Shown here: positions 25,516 through 32,149 of the stretch, in pieces
How positions within the stretch are numbered: the first letter of the stretch is position 1
Layout: every line of letters starts with the position of its first letter
Origin: Desulfuromonas sp.
GTDB taxonomy: Bacteria > Desulfobacterota > Desulfuromonadia > Desulfuromonadales > Desulfuromonadaceae
Assembly: GCA_028685815.1 (NCBI GenBank)
Contig: JAQUDG010000016.1
Span: 1 to 32,460 of the forward strand
DNA: 32,460 nucleotides
Reading direction: 5' to 3'
Notes under the pieces: generated by a model
The model's database searches: none
Seen by the model: only the letters and a program-made list of their open reading frames with translations
What the model was told of the DNA's origin: nothing
Translations under genes and position numbers: made by a program

Positions 25516-25681
25516 AAAATATATTTTTCACAGGAAACCTATGAAATCCTTTATGGTTGCTTGACGATGAATAACATTGCTGCAGACAAGTTTAACAGGT
25601 ACACTTCGTGGGTTTTTCTCTACTAACCAGACTGCCCTTCGCTGGCTCCGATTTTCCTACCTTGGTTCGAGGGTTACTTTC

Positions 25682-26515
25682 ATGAGTAAGGTTCAAAAAT
25701 CAAGTTGTCTTTTTCTAGCCATCGTACTTCTTCTGGCGCTGCCGGTCTTTGCAGAAACTGAAAACACGGAAACCGAGAACGCAGAAAAACGCCAGCGGTT
25801 AATTGAACAGCGTGTGTTTAGAAATTACCGAGAAAACCCCTTTTCCATGCATAAACCGAATTACGCCATCATCGGCAGCAATGATCTCAAACTTCAGTAT
25901 AGTTTCAAGTATCGTTTCTTCACCAAGGCTGATCTATACGGAGCGTTCACCAATCTCATACTCTGGGATATTTATAAAGACCAAAACCCAGCCTACGATA
26001 ACAACTATCAACCCGAGCTCTTTTACCGCTTTGTAAAAGAGAACAAGTGGTTTCTGTCTGCGGATGTAGGATATTGGCACCTTTCCAACGGGACGTCAGG
26101 GGAGAATGCCCGTTCATGGGACCGTTTATTTGTCCGGTTTCTGCAGACTGATAAAATATTTGATATGGATTTATTCTGGTACGCACACATCTGGCCAGTA
26201 ACTCTCTATGAAGGCAGAGAAAATAAAGACATTGGCGATTATCTCGGCTGGTGGGATTACGGGTTTTGGCTGAAGAATATTCTCAAACATCAATCGGGCG
26301 ATGGGCTAGATTTTCAATTCAATTTCCGCTCCGGCAAGCATGGAATTCCTTTTAATAAAGGCAATGTAACTGCTGGATTACAATACCGAATCCAGCGCTG
26401 GACAACGTTTAACCCTACTCTTTTTCTGCAGTATTTCTACGGTTACGGCGAGGTTATTCGAGATTACAATGTAAGAAGCGATGAGTTAAGAATGGGAATA
26501 TCCTGGTTTTATTGA
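25682..26515 (+). CDS. pldA: Outer-membrane phospholipase A (OMPLA/PldA type) with Asp replacing catalytic Asn
   Basis: OMPLA hydrolyses phospholipids that reach the outer leaflet of the outer membrane. The 277-residue protein has a signal peptide (CLFLAIVLLLALPVFA) and the family core YWHLSNGTSGENARSWDRL. Aligned without gaps to the E. coli active site (His142, Ser144, Asn156), His133 and Ser135 are kept but the third residue is Asp147. The rest is aromatic-rich beta-strand sequence ending in Phe-Tyr (ISWFY), as expected for an outer-membrane barrel. The ORF track begins at 25577; ATG 25682 with GAGGG upstream gives a proper signal peptide. A terminator follows directly. Confidence 0.88.
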   Translation: MSKVQKSSCLFLAIVLLLALPVFAETENTETENAEKRQRLIEQRVFRNYRENPFSMHKPNYAIIGSNDLKLQYSFKYRFFTKADLYGAFTNLILWDIYKDQNPAYDNNYQPELFYRFVKENKWFLSADVGYWHLSNGTSGENARSWDRLFVRFLQTDKIFDMDLFWYAHIWPVTLYEGRENKDIGDYLGWWDYGFWLKNILKHQSGDGLDFQFNFRSGKHGIPFNKGNVTAGLQYRIQRWTTFNPTLFLQYFYGYGEVIRDYNVRSDELRMGISWFY

Positions 26516-26687: not shown

Positions 26688-27992
26688 CTAGTCAAAGGGC
26701 AACTTAACCCCTTTGTTCATACCGGTAGTATTGGGGGCATGGACTGATCTTTGCTCCATTTCTGTTGTGTTTTTCCTACAGATGCTACCATCTGTCAGAT
26801 TTGAGGGATCGCCTTCAATGAGTTGAGCATATGTGAGTTTTGGCGTTACCCGAATCACTTCAAGCAGGGCTATCCAGTCCTCGGTATAACCAAGAGATTC
26901 TTTTGTATAAGGATCTATGATTTTTTTACCGTGGGCAAACACATCAAACAGCTCACCAATTTTAATCCCAGCCCCCCCCTGATTAAGTACGTACGTTCCA
27001 TTCCCCAAGCTAGAAACAACTAGAACTGGGTAAATATTGCTAAGCGTCTCTTCAGCGATCTTTTGTGCAACTTTTTCGAAGAGCGCATCGCGCACCTGCT
27101 GTGGATCACCATATTGGCCGAGTTCGGGTGTGTCTTGTGAACTCATTTCAATCCGTACAGTATTCGCCCACTTCACTTGGCGCGTTGCCATCAGGATGAT
27201 TCGATAGTCTACCGTTGCATGCGTATACCACCCAGGCTGAATCTGACCTGTCAGCTTTAGTTCGCCGACATAGCGCTCGTAACCGGCGTCATTGACCGTA
27301 CCAACCACCATGTAGTCAACCCCGAGCACATTACCAAGTTTTGCTTGCTCCTCAATCGGTGCATCTGGAGAAATAATAATATTTTTCTCAGCCATGAACT
27401 CCTCGACAAACTCTCGGTCAAGCACCGCAAAGCGACGCGACTGGGTAAACTGTGTCACCAGTCCCTGTGTTACCTTTCTAGAAGCTTCATTTGGCGATAC
27501 TAGGATGTCCTCGAAAATATACGTCTGACCATTAGTACGAAAAGGCATGACGGCGAGTCTTCGACGGTTTTCTGGCGAAAGGCCGACCATTTCGTAGTCT
27601 GGAATTTTAACTTCTAAATGAGCTTCGTGCCCTAATCCTTCCGAGCTTTTATGAACGCTAAGCACTTTATAAGACGAAATCGCGCCGTTGGTTTTAGAAA
27701 AGATGTCACTTGATTGTTGCTCTTTTAGGACAAGCCTATCTTCTCTTACCCCATCATTAGAATTGGTAGTTTCAGAAAAATTTGATTTCAATTTCTCTTC
27801 TACTTCTACTTCTACACCTTTGACTTGCCTAATTGCCTCAATAAGACCATTTAATACAGCTTCTTTTGGGGTTATACCGTAACCGGAAACATTTCTAAAT
27901 TCTCCAAAACCCTGGTTCACAATAGCTAAAACTAAGGCTATTGCGACCAGTAGAATTTTTTTATGTGGTAGTTCTGCCATGTGTTTTCGCAT
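26688..27992 (-). CDS. Exported three-domain CsgG/FlgT-like protein
   Basis: About 434 residues with an N-terminal signal sequence (KKILLVAIALVLAIVNQGFG) but no lipobox cysteine. Residues about 30-125 (VSGYGITPKEAVLNGLIEAIRQVKGVEV, SSYKVLSVHKS) resemble the FlgT N-terminal domain. The middle part (RRLAVMPFR, VTQGLVTQFTQSRRFAVLDREF, AKLGNVLGVDYMVVGTV) is CsgG-like. The C-terminal part (TYVLNQGGAGIKIGELFDVFAHG) resembles FlgT-C. CsgG is a lipoprotein secretion pore; FlgT is a flagellar H-ring protein; neither role is shown here. The start at ATG 27992 (AAGG upstream) is preferred over 28022 but is uncertain. Last gene of the exported-protein cluster. Confidence 0.7.
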   Translation of the reverse strand: MRKHMAELPHKKILLVAIALVLAIVNQGFGEFRNVSGYGITPKEAVLNGLIEAIRQVKGVEVEVEEKLKSNFSETTNSNDGVREDRLVLKEQQSSDIFSKTNGAISSYKVLSVHKSSEGLGHEAHLEVKIPDYEMVGLSPENRRRLAVMPFRTNGQTYIFEDILVSPNEASRKVTQGLVTQFTQSRRFAVLDREFVEEFMAEKNIIISPDAPIEEQAKLGNVLGVDYMVVGTVNDAGYERYVGELKLTGQIQPGWYTHATVDYRIILMATRQVKWANTVRIEMSSQDTPELGQYGDPQQVRDALFEKVAQKIAEETLSNIYPVLVVSSLGNGTYVLNQGGAGIKIGELFDVFAHGKKIIDPYTKESLGYTEDWIALLEVIRVTPKLTYAQLIEGDPSNLTDGSICRKNTTEMEQRSVHAPNTTGMNKGVKLPFD

Positions 27993-28113
27993 AATTGCCT
28001 TGTTGAAGAAGATGTTTAACATATCATCTGGTAAAATTAAACCATGCTTCTCGATGTCAGAAAATTAGATACCACTAAACCGGATGGTCTTTGTACTTTA
28101 TGGATAACACAAA

Positions 28114-28887
28114 TTAGAAATCATCTGCGGTTGAAATGAAAGGGCGCCTAACTGCCTCACTTTGATCAGAGCCCTGCACTTGACCCACGCTCTTTCCAAC
28201 TGATTTATGCATCTTTGCTTTTTGATTGTTGAGTGTTTCTGCATCAGCTGCAAAATTTGCACTGCTTGGAGACCATTTAAACACCTTAACGGCTAACATT
28301 TCATTATACTCTAGCCCTGAATGCGAACCAAAGATAGTCATGCCTCGAATCATTTGGTTAGTTTTTTGACGTACCTCTAAACCTGAGACTGATTGAACTG
28401 AAGAAGAAGACTTTATGTAAGTTATGACTTGTCCAAGTACTGCCTGGATTATGATAGCCCTATCTTCGGGAAGAAGTTCCTTAGCTAATTCTTCGTTTTG
28501 AGTGACTTGTTTCATCTTATCCATAATGTCATCTATGTTCATCGATGAATCAGTTATTGTATCAGTAACATCAAGACAAGCATCCACATTTTTCTGTACA
28601 AACTCAGCAAAAGCCTTGTTTGCGGAAGCTTCAGCTATGCGAAGCGCGTGGGCCTCGGCTTTCAATTTGCTTATTTTAACAAGACTCTCTGTTGCTGAAC
28701 CACGTCCACCAATGTAAACCGTGATAGCACCGTTAACATCTCTATAGACGTCTATAATACCGTCGGCTATTGTTAGTTTTTGTATATCTTGTGCAAGCTT
28801 ATTTTCCTTCTCTGACTTATTGGCGGCAATGGAATTTGTTCCAAAAGCAATGAGGCATGTTAATACAAGAAATAGTGTTTTTTTCAT
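28114..28887 (-). CDS. Exported protein of unknown function
   Basis: A 257-residue protein with a clear signal peptide (KKTLFLVLTCLIAFGTNSIAA) and an excellent AAGGAG ribosome site. No family was recognised with certainty. After the signal come a short beta-rich stretch (GIIDVYRDVNGAITVYIGGRGS) and a long, Ala/Lys-rich helical region (about 65-150, LKAEAHALRIAEASANKAFAEFVQ). A segment about residues 175-215 (GLEVRQKTNQMIRGMTIFGSHSG, MLAVKVFKWSP) resembles the C-terminal part of LPP20/TolB-accessory-type envelope proteins. The tail is polar. It lies between the LpoB-like and CsgG/FlgT-like genes on the same strand, and conserved neighbours suggest it belongs to the same envelope system. Confidence 0.65.
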   Translation of the reverse strand: MKKTLFLVLTCLIAFGTNSIAANKSEKENKLAQDIQKLTIADGIIDVYRDVNGAITVYIGGRGSATESLVKISKLKAEAHALRIAEASANKAFAEFVQKNVDACLDVTDTITDSSMNIDDIMDKMKQVTQNEELAKELLPEDRAIIIQAVLGQVITYIKSSSSVQSVSGLEVRQKTNQMIRGMTIFGSHSGLEYNEMLAVKVFKWSPSSANFAADAETLNNQKAKMHKSVGKSVGQVQGSDQSEAVRRPFISTADDF

Positions 28888-28971
28888 ACGTTTCTCCTTT
28901 TATTGTTGGTCAAATGGCTTAGTTAATAGCTATGTAATACAAACCTAGCAACAGATTTGGTTGAAAAATTG

Positions 28972-29589
28972 TCACCACGACACCGATTTGCTACTACCAC
29001 GCTTAACAATAGGTTTCTCATCTTCCCACCATGCCAATCCAGTCGCAATATCGGTCATTGTCATTTGGAAGTAGTAATCAACCTGTTGGCGACGTTTATC
29101 GATCCTATTATTGCGCTGGATTATTTTTCCAGACAAACTCAGTTCAGGCTTAATCAGTTGCCCTTTAACTGTGCCTCGGCTTTGATCGAATTCATCCGAA
29201 TGGCGCAAATCTCTAGCTGCCATCACCATTTGATCCTCCGGTCCATCAAGACCAACAGCTGTGGTTGTAACCACCTTGCCGCTGCGTAACAGTTCCACGC
29301 GGATTTTCTTGACCAATTGGTCCGTATCAATTCGCTGCATGGTGTCGTTGGTGATTCTCGAAATAACCATGACATAACGTCCACCATCCGGTTTATTAAC
29401 CGCTCCGGAGCTGAGCATTGACTCAACCATGTCGCTGGCAGCATTTTCAAAGTCGCGATAGTCCAGTCCCATGACTGCCTTGCCTTTGTCATAACTCGTG
29501 TCCACAGTTTCAGTGGGTATGGCACATCCAGAAAGTAGCAGGCATGCTCCCAAACAAGCAAAAATGACATATTGCATAAAACGTGACAT
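28972..29589 (-). CDS. LpoB-like lipoprotein (penicillin-binding protein activator family)
   Basis: A 205-residue lipoprotein: signal sequence with lipobox LLSGC, then a globular domain close to E. coli LpoB/PF13036, with VMVISRITNDTMQRIDTDQLVKKIRVELLRSGKV and the C-terminal VDYYFQMTMTDIATGLAWWEDEKPIVKRG. LpoB in enterobacteria reaches from the outer membrane to activate PBP1B; the same action cannot be assumed here because the partner site (UB2H of PBP1B) may be missing. The next upstream gene is YcfL-like; ycfL and lpoB (ycfM) are also neighbours in E. coli, which supports the call. GGGGAG lies about 9 bases before the ATG. Confidence 0.85.
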   Translation of the reverse strand: MSRFMQYVIFACLGACLLLSGCAIPTETVDTSYDKGKAVMGLDYRDFENAASDMVESMLSSGAVNKPDGGRYVMVISRITNDTMQRIDTDQLVKKIRVELLRSGKVVTTTAVGLDGPEDQMVMAARDLRHSDEFDQSRGTVKGQLIKPELSLSGKIIQRNNRIDKRRQQVDYYFQMTMTDIATGLAWWEDEKPIVKRGSSKSVSW

Positions 29590-29662
29590 CAGTATTAACT
29601 CCCCATTGAATATTAAAATAGACTGCTCAACAAATCATTGCACGGCAAAGGGTGGGTACTGC

Positions 29663-30070
29663 TCAAGAACCGCTACTATCATCTCGTATGATTAGAATTT
29701 TGAAGGATGAGATGTCGGCTTTTGGAGAAATAGCATGTATTTGAAACGGCATGTTGTTGACTAGCGTTTTCTTATTCCAGCGCGACAAAATAGACTTGAT
29801 CTCCATTCCGCGTGAATCAAACCAATCAATCTTATATTCTATCTTTTGGACATTATTCGAAATATTGCGCCCACTCAATTGAACCTCAGTGAATCCTCCA
29901 TTATTGACATTCTCGATGAGAGATTCAAATAAAACTCCAGAATTAAGGTTGCTATGCACAAGGAGTCTCTGATCCTCCGACAGTGCCCGAGTAGATGTTG
30001 AAGCGCATCCAGACAGTACAATCAGCGCTAGAGATATAAATAAAACAGCCAGTTTGAAATGCTTTGCCAT
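29663..30070 (-). CDS. YcfL/DUF1425-like lipoprotein
   Basis: A 135-residue lipoprotein with signal peptide KHFKLAVLFISLALIVLSGC and lipobox LSGC, followed by a single beta-sandwich domain: FTEVQLSGRNISNNVQKIEYKIDWFDSRGMEI and a late ISPKADISSFKILIIR. This is the DUF1425/YcfL pattern, of unknown function. The ORF track starts 33 bases earlier; ATG 30070 is preferred because GGAGG lies 8 bases upstream and the signal peptide then starts properly. It lies 37 bases after the COG3014-like gene and 73 bases before the LpoB-like gene. Confidence 0.8.
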   Translation of the reverse strand: MAKHFKLAVLFISLALIVLSGCASTSTRALSEDQRLLVHSNLNSGVLFESLIENVNNGGFTEVQLSGRNISNNVQKIEYKIDWFDSRGMEIKSILSRWNKKTLVNNMPFQIHAISPKADISSFKILIIRDDSSGS

Positions 30071-30107
30071 CGGTATATCCTCCAAGATAGCTTTAATGGT
30101 CAACAGA

Positions 30108-31577
30108 TTAATTGCTTATATCGCCCTTATCAACATGAACAAACATCTCCCTACCAAAAGAGATGACATGACCAACGGCTGGAGCCATTGCAGAAGGTAC
30201 CTTTACATAGACGATGGCAAATTGTGCATTAGGTAGATTAACTGAGAGGATTTCACTTGTTCCTGCTTCGGGCGCTCTGAAACTAAGAATTCCATTTGCA
30301 GGACGTTCAAACCGTGCAAGCTGGAATTCCTTCGGTAAGGCTGTCCAATTGCGAACATCAGCTTGAGTTGTCGCCACCTGATAAAGGCCAGCAACTAAAG
30401 AGCCAAGATCTCCATACTCACGACCAGCTTCATATTGAACATATGATTTCAAAGCTGTAGACAAAACTGCACGTGTAACAATACCAGAAAATTCTTTTTT
30501 AAATTCGCTCTGAACAACCCTATCCATACTCGCCAGAGTTCGGGTTGCGGATAATGTATTTATCCCATCACTTACGTGGAGCGTACTAAATGCGGAATCC
30601 CTGAAACACAATGACGGTAGGGCAATCCCGACATATTTGATTTTTTCAAAAAACATCGGGATATCAATACGGCGTTCATCCTTAACCGGACCAAGTCCAT
30701 TTTCGAAAACAACCCAAACAGTAGCGGGCAGAGCATCCCTAGATATTTTTGCAGCCAAAACTGAATCTAAAACGGCGAGATCCTCTCCAACAAACGGATT
30801 CCTTGTCATACCTACAACTCTGCGAAATGAATCACGTGCCTTGCTAAGATCTTGTAGGTCTTCGCCCCCAAGGAAGAGAAAAAGTCCCTGCATGTATGTT
30901 GTAAATGGATTTACGAAATCTGGATAAGTTTCCCACTGCTCAAGCTCGGGATATTTATTGGTTATGCTGGTCTGGAGATCGGGGTTTGTAAGAGCTTTTT
31001 CAAGAAAAACTCCTCTTTTTTCGTTTTCTTCCTTCTTTTTTTCAACGGCTTCATTTCTAGACTGAATTTCTTTAGCAAAGTATTCAACAGCTCGGCGCTG
31101 TCTATCATCTGCGCGGTTCATTTCTATCCGAACATAGTCTGGTTGCCCCGTGGACATGAAGTTTAAAGCTTTGTAGGTGTTTACCATAACGCCGTCGTAA
31201 ACTTGCCCACGGTAATCCAGCACTGCGTCGTTAACCGCTATTTGAGCAGCGTAATTAGTCGCCTCTTTAAGGGTACCCTCCTCATCGTACTTCTTCATAA
31301 TCGCTTCACACTGGTCGAATAACTCAGAGCTAATCTCATAATCCGAGGCGGCACGAGAGGAGGCAGCAGCCTGAAGGGTCCAGAGAAGATTCCCTGAACC
31401 TTGTTTCCCAAGTAGGCTCTTCTGTTTTTCAAGAGCAAGTTGGGTTGATTCAGCGTAGAGACCATTTACATATTTAGCATCAAATTGACCCAAAGACTTC
31501 TTATGTCCAGCGCAACCGCTTAAGATGCTCACAATTATGAGGCACAGAAGGAATGCAATTGTTTTTTGTTTTTTCAT
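30108..31577 (-). CDS. COG3014-like lipoprotein
   Basis: A 489-residue lipoprotein (KKQKTIAFLLCLIIVSILSGC, lipobox LSGC). The first half is helical and TPR-like, with the motif YKALNFMSTGQPDYVRIEMNRADDRQRRAVEYF typical of COG3014 proteins, then a charged coiled coil (EIQSRNEAVEKKKEENEKRG). The second half is beta-rich (TVWVVFENGLGPVKDERRIDIPMFF, ISFGREMFVHVDKGD). Function unknown. Families like this often stand next to YcfL- and LpoB-like lipoproteins, as here. It appears to be the second gene of the block, with the glycine-zipper gene 105 bases upstream. Confidence 0.75.
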   Translation of the reverse strand: MKKQKTIAFLLCLIIVSILSGCAGHKKSLGQFDAKYVNGLYAESTQLALEKQKSLLGKQGSGNLLWTLQAAASSRAASDYEISSELFDQCEAIMKKYDEEGTLKEATNYAAQIAVNDAVLDYRGQVYDGVMVNTYKALNFMSTGQPDYVRIEMNRADDRQRRAVEYFAKEIQSRNEAVEKKKEENEKRGVFLEKALTNPDLQTSITNKYPELEQWETYPDFVNPFTTYMQGLFLFLGGEDLQDLSKARDSFRRVVGMTRNPFVGEDLAVLDSVLAAKISRDALPATVWVVFENGLGPVKDERRIDIPMFFEKIKYVGIALPSLCFRDSAFSTLHVSDGINTLSATRTLASMDRVVQSEFKKEFSGIVTRAVLSTALKSYVQYEAGREYGDLGSLVAGLYQVATTQADVRNWTALPKEFQLARFERPANGILSFRAPEAGTSEILSVNLPNAQFAIVYVKVPSAMAPAVGHVISFGREMFVHVDKGDISN

Positions 31578-31681
31578 TAATCTAAAACCTTTTTGAATTC
31601 ACCTTAGATAAAACCTAATTGCAGACTATGGCGGTCATCAAACGGATGATTAAAATGGATAGAAACCATTTCTTCGGAAAA

Positions 31682-32149
31682 CTATTTTTTAAAGGTCAGA
31701 GTCCTCTGCCTACCTTTTTCGTAAAAAGTAGCTGTTGAGTGGCTGTATACCTTTTCTGAGACAGTTTTATAGTGGGTTTCCACGGTACATGTCTTTACTG
31801 AATTGCGCCGGTCTTGGTAGATCTGATGTCCGACATTACTGCCGATGAATGCACCCGCTGTCGTTGCTGCATTTCTCCCCCAACCTCTGCCGAATTGATG
31901 CCCGATGATTCCGCCAGCGGCAGCCCCGCTAATTGCCGCGAGTTCTCCCCTAAGTGCGGATGTAGGCCCATAAAAAATCCCCTCATTTCGCGAATAAACA
32001 GGGGTTTCACTACATACTTTGACTTGATAGGGGATTTTTTTAGTTACGGTTTTATAGTGGTCGGTGATGGCACCGTTAATATAGCCTTGGGAGAAGGCGT
32101 TACAGGCCATTAGAATTAGGACGATAAAAATCGATATAATTTTAAGCAT
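31682..32149 (-). CDS. Glycine-zipper exported protein (Rick_17kDa_Anti/YMGG-like)
   Basis: A 155-residue protein with an N-terminal signal (KIISIFIVLILMAC) that may be a weak lipobox (LMAC) or be cut after NAFSQ. The centre is a glycine zipper, AAISGAAAGGIIGHQFGRGWGRNAATTAGAFIGSNVGHQIY, the 17-kDa-antigen type that inserts in or lies on the outer membrane. The flanks carry two matching segments, HYKTVTKKIPYQVKVC and HYKTVSEKVYSHS, each near a cysteine. The ORF track starts at 32257; ATG 32149 with AGGAAG 7 bases upstream is preferred. It is the first gene of the envelope cluster. Confidence 0.8.
   Translation of the reverse strand: MLKIISIFIVLILMACNAFSQGYINGAITDHYKTVTKKIPYQVKVCSETPVYSRNEGIFYGPTSALRGELAAISGAAAGGIIGHQFGRGWGRNAATTAGAFIGSNVGHQIYQDRRNSVKTCTVETHYKTVSEKVYSHSTATFYEKGRQRTLTFKK

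Follow-up and report, generated by a model that had tools for sequence, protein, structure and literature searches.

The window analysed here, a stretch of 32,460 nucleotides from Desulfuromonas sp. that forms one whole contig of a 2.6-Mb genome (G000, 99.4% complete), carries between positions 26,688 and 32,149 six genes for exported proteins, and three of these, encoding a COG3014-type lipoprotein, YcfL and an LpoB-like lipoprotein, are the core of a gene module that is kept together in at least eight phyla. The module was surveyed with the COG3014 protein as the sole query in genomes of the class, of the phylum and of a named genome collection, which gave 106 distinct COG3014 loci. An LpoB homologue was found on the same strand within 4 kb in 103 of them, and since LpoB was absent from the query, this adjacency is not built into the search. 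The three loci lacking it (L038, L058 and L129) all lie at contig ends. YcfL was found in 77 loci, and it is from these two counts that the trio emerges as the core; in the window and in most of the YcfL-bearing loci the genes stand on one strand in the same order, COG3014-YcfL-LpoB. According to record names and tree labels, the module occurs in Desulfobacterota, Myxococcota, Pseudomonadota (Aeromonas, Colwellia, Piscirickettsia, Endonucleobacter and Chromatiales), Planctomycetota (Brocadia and others), Verrucomicrobiota, Lentisphaerota, Omnitrophota and CSSED10-310. One Desulfuromonadales branch (L061, L064-L070) shows the order LPP20-LpoB-COG3014-LPP20 with no recognised YcfL.

The association was seen also at the level of genomes. 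One draw of 244 Desulfuromonadia genomes held 57 that were COG3014-positive, and every one of these was LpoB-positive as well (Fisher 2e-43, phylogeny ignored). Thirteen Desulfuromonadia genomes had LpoB and no single-sequence match to COG3014, and in 11 of these a profile revealed a divergent COG3014 adjoining LpoB; in one of the remaining two the contig stops at LpoB, and the other has a weaker, solitary LpoB relative. The reciprocal rule, from LpoB to COG3014, therefore nearly holds in Desulfuromonadia. An earlier note on this DNA, made from the sequence alone, had expected similar sets to recur in other Proteobacteria and had named a lack of co-occurrence of the families, with separate transcription of the genes, as its refutation. 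The families clearly do co-occur, far beyond Proteobacteria, but all six genes together are not a conserved set: a CsgG-like gene is present in 39 of the 106 loci, a glycine-zipper gene beside LpoB was met again only in Colwellia, and the gene for a 257-residue protein is, in everything searched, private to the window genome. Other neighbours in the 106 loci are an Lcl_C lipoprotein (30 loci), a PEGA/CsgG protein (16) and LPP20 (9). COG3014 is named in no paper of the full-text literature searched, which covered journals outside subscription, and no paper treating the trio as a system was found there. The families were already known, and the conserved module and its relation to Escherichia coli LpoB appear to be undescribed in that literature.

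The earlier note had connected the window set with the YcfL-LpoB pair of E. coli, and the synteny of hinT indicates that the two are indeed the same module. The order in E. coli is hinT-ycfL-lpoB, and in Aeromonas caviae KAM479 HinT (2e-60 to E. coli HinT) is encoded directly upstream of COG3014-ycfL-lpoB, a comparison based on two genomes, one Aeromonas record and E. coli. The simplest reading of these gene orders would be one ancestral locus, from which COG3014 was lost and in which the spacer of LpoB was lengthened on the E. coli line, and Aeromonas looks like an intermediate. The note had the direction wrong in supposing that an E. coli-type pair was extended by COG3014: COG3014-LpoB, with or without YcfL, is widespread, and it is the E. 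coli LpoB that looks derived and its locus that looks reduced. As the trio usually comes without the activating features of E. coli LpoB, the latter is suggested to have branched off late from an older system of the outer membrane, an order of evolutionary events that we infer. Taken as a whole, COG3014, YcfL and a short-spacer LpoB would make up an ancient lipoprotein machine of the outer membrane, kept in at least eight phyla, the E. coli activator of penicillin-binding protein PBP1B would be a late spin-off that arose when COG3014 was lost and the spacer grew by about 30 residues, and most non-enterobacterial annotations as 'penicillin-binding protein activator LpoB' would be misnamed; we put this reading at an even balance. 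The Aeromonas locus (L215, NZ_AP026896.1, 3084897-3098075) belongs to a 4.94-Mb record labelled plasmid pKAM479_3, which by its size and content (hinT, flgH and a penicillin-binding protein with a UB2H domain) is evidently the chromosome.

In E. coli, LpoB docks on the UB2H domain of PBP1B, and it has been described as confined to enterobacteria and co-evolving with UB2H (PMC3060616). It crosses the periplasm to PBP1B via a long disordered stretch, the needed reach being about 145 A (PMC6220978). The window protein belongs to the same family (TIGR02722, 150.7 bits against a cut-off of 110.55; PF13036, 134.3 against 22.3), and the family profile matches the E. coli LpoB structures in the PDB at E 7e-10. 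It is 60% identical to the LpoB of locus L106 and 18-29% identical to the other LpoBs compared, and its lipobox, read by eye as LSGC-A at residues 19-23, predicts an outer-membrane lipoprotein. The spacer from the lipid-bearing cysteine to the conserved asparagine of the domain has 59 residues in the window and 60 in Aeromonas, against 90 in E. coli LpoB, and it measures 56-61 residues in all 103 module LpoBs, a constancy that suggests a fixed geometry and not a loose tether. The window protein thus does not have the long, periplasm-spanning spacer of LpoB. No match to UB2H was obtained in the window genome, the E. coli control being positive, and among the carriers searched those of Planctomycetota and Verrucomicrobiota and most of those of Desulfuromonadia also gave no match. 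The domain was found in Aeromonas, Piscirickettsia, Colwellia, two further gammaproteobacterial metagenome-assembled genomes and some Desulfobacterota, as well as in one Omnitrophota carrier with a low score over the cut-off. Since many carriers have no detected UB2H, the module does not depend on this domain.

The idea of a cell-wall regulator, raised by the earlier note, is therefore unsupported for the window genome in its PBP1B-activating form, with no UB2H detected and a short spacer, and the name LpoB is misleading for the window protein. The LpoB-like protein could instead regulate peptidoglycan synthesis by activating a class A penicillin-binding protein via another docking site, and COG3014 and YcfL would then bridge the distance that the long spacer covers in E. 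coli. Such a role would agree with the homology to LpoB over the whole domain, above the NCBI cut-off, with the presence of the module in several UB2H-bearing Gammaproteobacteria and with the gene order shared with E. coli hinT-ycfL-lpoB, a unit whose lpoB mutants show sensitivity to meropenem (PMC11731830). However, UB2H is undetected here and also, outside Gammaproteobacteria, in the majority of carriers, and the spacer falls 30 residues short of that of E. coli LpoB, which has to span about 145 A (PMC6220978); we consider this role unlikely. The window genome has also a second, weaker LpoB/CsgG-type protein of 221 residues (L074:6341-7006, contig 166; PF13036, 36 bits) without COG3014, and stand-alone proteins resembling it are present in relatives of the same family.

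Beyond LpoB, the family profile matches 5t11, a 12-chain 'uncharacterized protein', at E 4e-4 (5t10/5t11 chains 4e-4 to 9e-4), which we take to be the dodecamer of PelC, the lipoprotein of Pel polysaccharide export. Members of the family also match CsgG, FlgT_M and TolB_N weakly. For the COG3014 protein, an AlphaFold2 model from an 18-sequence alignment (predicted local distance difference test, pLDDT, 78.1; predicted template modelling score 0.78) gave a predicted TPR-like helical domain at about residues 63-276, followed by a beta domain into which a single 53-residue helix (351-403) is inserted. A fold search with this model in the PDB returned generic TPR proteins only, all weak and none at E <= 0.001, and relatives of the protein score just under the curated cut-offs of the Pfam TPR models. 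At 4269-6364 of L106, the locus of the nearest relative, genes for a TPR protein and for a BamB-like PQQ protein (PF13360, 5e-36) stop some 20 nt short of COG3014, which may link the module to the assembly of the outer membrane.

As the best explanation we propose, with confidence a little short of even, a complex or scaffold of the three lipoproteins with a TPR hub near the outer membrane, which here would be neither flagellar nor an activator of PBP1B. COG3014, YcfL and the LpoB-like protein would form a complex close under the outer membrane, in which the LpoB-like subunit, with its TolB-N/CsgG-type fold, would be kept close to its lipid anchor by a short spacer of constant length; it probably oligomerises, which we propose because its fold relatives CsgG, FlgT and PelC do so. 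The TPR surface of COG3014 would serve as the hub for binding partners and YcfL as a small third subunit, and CsgG/FlgT-like proteins, LPP20, OmpA-type barrels, glycine-zipper proteins and, here, the 257-residue protein may be lineage-specific plug-ins. The likely role would lie in organising the outer membrane with respect to the cell wall. The known route from LpoB to PBP1B would not be used in the window organism, and in the E. coli lineage COG3014 would have been lost and LpoB, with a longer stalk, would reach PBP1B. Formation of the complex, its ring, its outer-membrane location and its function are all predictions. Some points weigh against them. The ring is argued by analogy with fold relatives, and E. 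coli LpoB is an outer-membrane lipoprotein that works alone, as a stalk across the periplasm, so ring formation is not a necessity for the family. In 29 of the 106 loci YcfL is absent or was not recognised, and several gammaproteobacterial carriers have UB2H, so a link to PBP1B may exist in these.

The CsgG-like gene is a frequent extra of the module, and the glycine-zipper gene and the 257-residue protein are rare or private. The CsgG-like protein consists of an N domain, a CsgG domain and a C domain, and its N domain is common only to a 441-residue protein encoded beside COG3014-LpoB in Endonucleobacter (L194; 27% over 136 residues, E 3e-13), which is its closest homologue and has the same three-domain layout. 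The family profile matches CsgG chains in the PDB at 5e-8, and the C domain matches TsaP at 5e-13; the first-hairpin region is similar in length to that of CsgG, and the alignment ends before the second hairpin. The CsgG fold, confirmed by the Pfam match and by the CsgG chains, could indicate a secretion or export complex, in which the CsgG-like protein would be a channel in the outer membrane that passes a surface fibre or polymer and the lipoproteins would be its periplasmic collar; the match of the LpoB profile to 5t11/5t10, taken to be PelC, also speaks for it. However, the trio persists without CsgG-like genes, which only 39 of the 106 loci have, and no fibre or curli gene was recognised beside the gene within the window. 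Compared with the curli channel CsgG, with which it shares the CsgG domain, the window protein has a plain signal peptide (by eye, no lipobox and no cysteine near the signal-peptide end), has an extra N domain and a TsaP/FlgT_C-like C domain, and is optional in the module. We find a secretion complex quite improbable.

The three-domain layout also resembles that of FlgT, whose chains are matched weakly by the C domain and the CsgG part (3w1e, E 0.022; 8z5n, E 0.03), and with LPP20 (FlgP-like) genes flanking some module loci and the L-ring gene flgH present in the window genome, a flagellar H-ring type assembly like Vibrio FlgO/FlgP/FlgT can be imagined. Yet no FlgT domain scores above the Pfam cut-off in the window protein (family members show FlgT_C and FlgT_M below it), the surroundings of the window locus contain no recognised flagellar gene, and flgH was undetected in the carriers G021, G577, Endonucleobacter and two Puniceicoccales genomes, Endonucleobacter being the one with the closest FlgT-like homologue beside COG3014 and LpoB. 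Incompleteness of metagenome-assembled genomes could hide the gene in single cases, but the overall pattern is against a flagellar role, which we regard as highly improbable. A profile made from the FlgT-like pair by itself did not reach FlgT in the PDB, and an hhalign comparison of the CsgG-like protein with LPP20 was not significant.

It is also possible that only COG3014-YcfL-LpoB is functional and that the glycine-zipper, 257-residue and CsgG/FlgT-like genes are unrelated neighbours at the locus, an alternative that we hold to be a serious one, although on balance we doubt it. The trio stands without further partners in many loci, such as that of Aeromonas, and the glycine-zipper and 257-residue genes do not recur with it in Desulfobacterota. 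The glycine-zipper protein (PRK11280, 46 bits, under the cut-off) is encoded directly after LpoB in two Colwellia loci (L135 and L148), and its link to the module is weak. For the 257-residue protein, neither 395 genomes of the phylum nor the module loci yielded a relative; it has no LPP20 match in Pfam, its hhalign comparison with LPP20 alignment A3 is not significant (probability about 1%, E 0.057, corresponding region), and its AlphaFold2 model from the single sequence is unusable (pLDDT 43.6). On the other hand, the trio is accompanied by CsgG-like genes in many lineages, their three-domain form adjoins trio genes in Endonucleobacter, and the genes at the window locus share one strand with short gaps. 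OmpA-type barrel genes adjoin several module loci, and LPP20 and PEGA protein genes some. A lipoprotein with an SLH domain and a 310-residue exported protein are encoded downstream of LpoB in two loci (L049:5748-7947 and L054:4003-6160), and a conserved TPGSSxxPLKW tail ends several of the module CsgG-like proteins (alignment A6, e.g. L041:10261-11298).

COG3014 had no match in the genomes listed for this genus and family, and of 14 genomes of the family only the window genome has a strong LpoB. The nearest COG3014 (44% identical) is that of L106, in a genome (G302) from another family of the same phylum. In the tree, these two group with Puniceicoccales (Verrucomicrobiota) and then with a Planctomycetota pair, apart from the other Desulfuromonadia (support 99-100%). 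This placement, together with the low GC content of the module (42.6% against 49.1% in the rest of the contig), suggests that the window copy may have arrived horizontally. In a Puniceicoccales relative a gene for the lipid A deacylase LpxR follows LpoB (L124:9486-10880), and in the window a gene for an OmpLA-type phospholipase A1 (25577-26515, plus strand) converges on the end of the six-gene set; both are enzymes modifying outer-membrane lipids.

The description of the locus in the earlier note, with six exported-protein genes on one strand, three clear lipoboxes and a weak one, was borne out by the open reading frames, the Pfam and NCBIfam searches with curated cut-offs and signals judged by eye. 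The genes are given in Table 1 in the order in which they are read. The COG3014-type protein has no Pfam or NCBIfam match above the cut-off, and its label is based on the earlier note's name and the homologous family found here, not on a model of these databases. By eye, the clear lipoboxes are ...SILSGC-A in COG3014, ...IVLSGC-A in YcfL and ...LLLSGC-A in the LpoB-like protein, and the alanine at +2 in all three would direct them to the outer membrane by the E. coli rule. In the glycine-zipper protein the lipobox is weak (...ILMAC), and the 257-residue protein has a plain signal peptide. With the starts chosen, the intergenic gaps are 37-121 nt, and a Shine-Dalgarno-like GGAG/AGGAG precedes the YcfL, LpoB-like and 257-residue genes. 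Simple scans for promoters and terminators gave no excess over shuffled sequence or chance. Upstream of the glycine-zipper start only 311 nt of the contig remain, and further genes could belong to the set.

Table 1. Genes of the six-gene set in the window, in reading order.
Feature	Position	Strand	Remarks
Glycine-zipper (2TM) exported protein	31682..32149	-	ATG at 32149, longest ORF (open reading frame) from 32257; PF05433 1e-7; accessory
COG3014-type lipoprotein	30108..31577	-	Lipobox LSGC; family alignment A1; core gene
YcfL (DUF1425) lipoprotein	29663..30070	-	ATG at 30070; PF07233 1e-13; lipobox LSGC; core gene
LpoB-like lipoprotein, short spacer	28972..29589	-	PF13036 4e-39, TIGR02722 5e-44; core gene
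257-residue exported protein	28114..28887	-	No Pfam/NCBIfam match above cut-off; private to the genome in all searched
CsgG/FlgT-like three-domain exported protein	26688..27992	-	Likely start 27992, longest ORF from 28022; PF03783 5e-12; accessory

Two further systems invite comparison. The ring of 12 chains that we take to be PelC resembles the module in the profile match, and Pel export also has a TPR partner, PelB, but no Pel genes were recognised beside the window module. The Neisseria sets NMB1124-1126 and NMB1162-1164, like their counterparts in Haemophilus parasuis, consist of consecutive lipoprotein genes and may be the same trio. The third of these lipoproteins has been called a member of the CsgG family (PMC6338130), and two of the Neisseria proteins are listed as antigens of meningococcal outer-membrane vesicle vaccines (PMC10097807).

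LpoB is the textbook regulator of cell-wall synthesis, and its family is found here in at least eight phyla, nearly always beside COG3014 and, outside Gammaproteobacteria, usually without UB2H. With this, the origin of the PBP1B-LpoB switch becomes testable, and a widespread misannotation of LpoB is flagged. The results point to a conserved envelope system without an assigned function.

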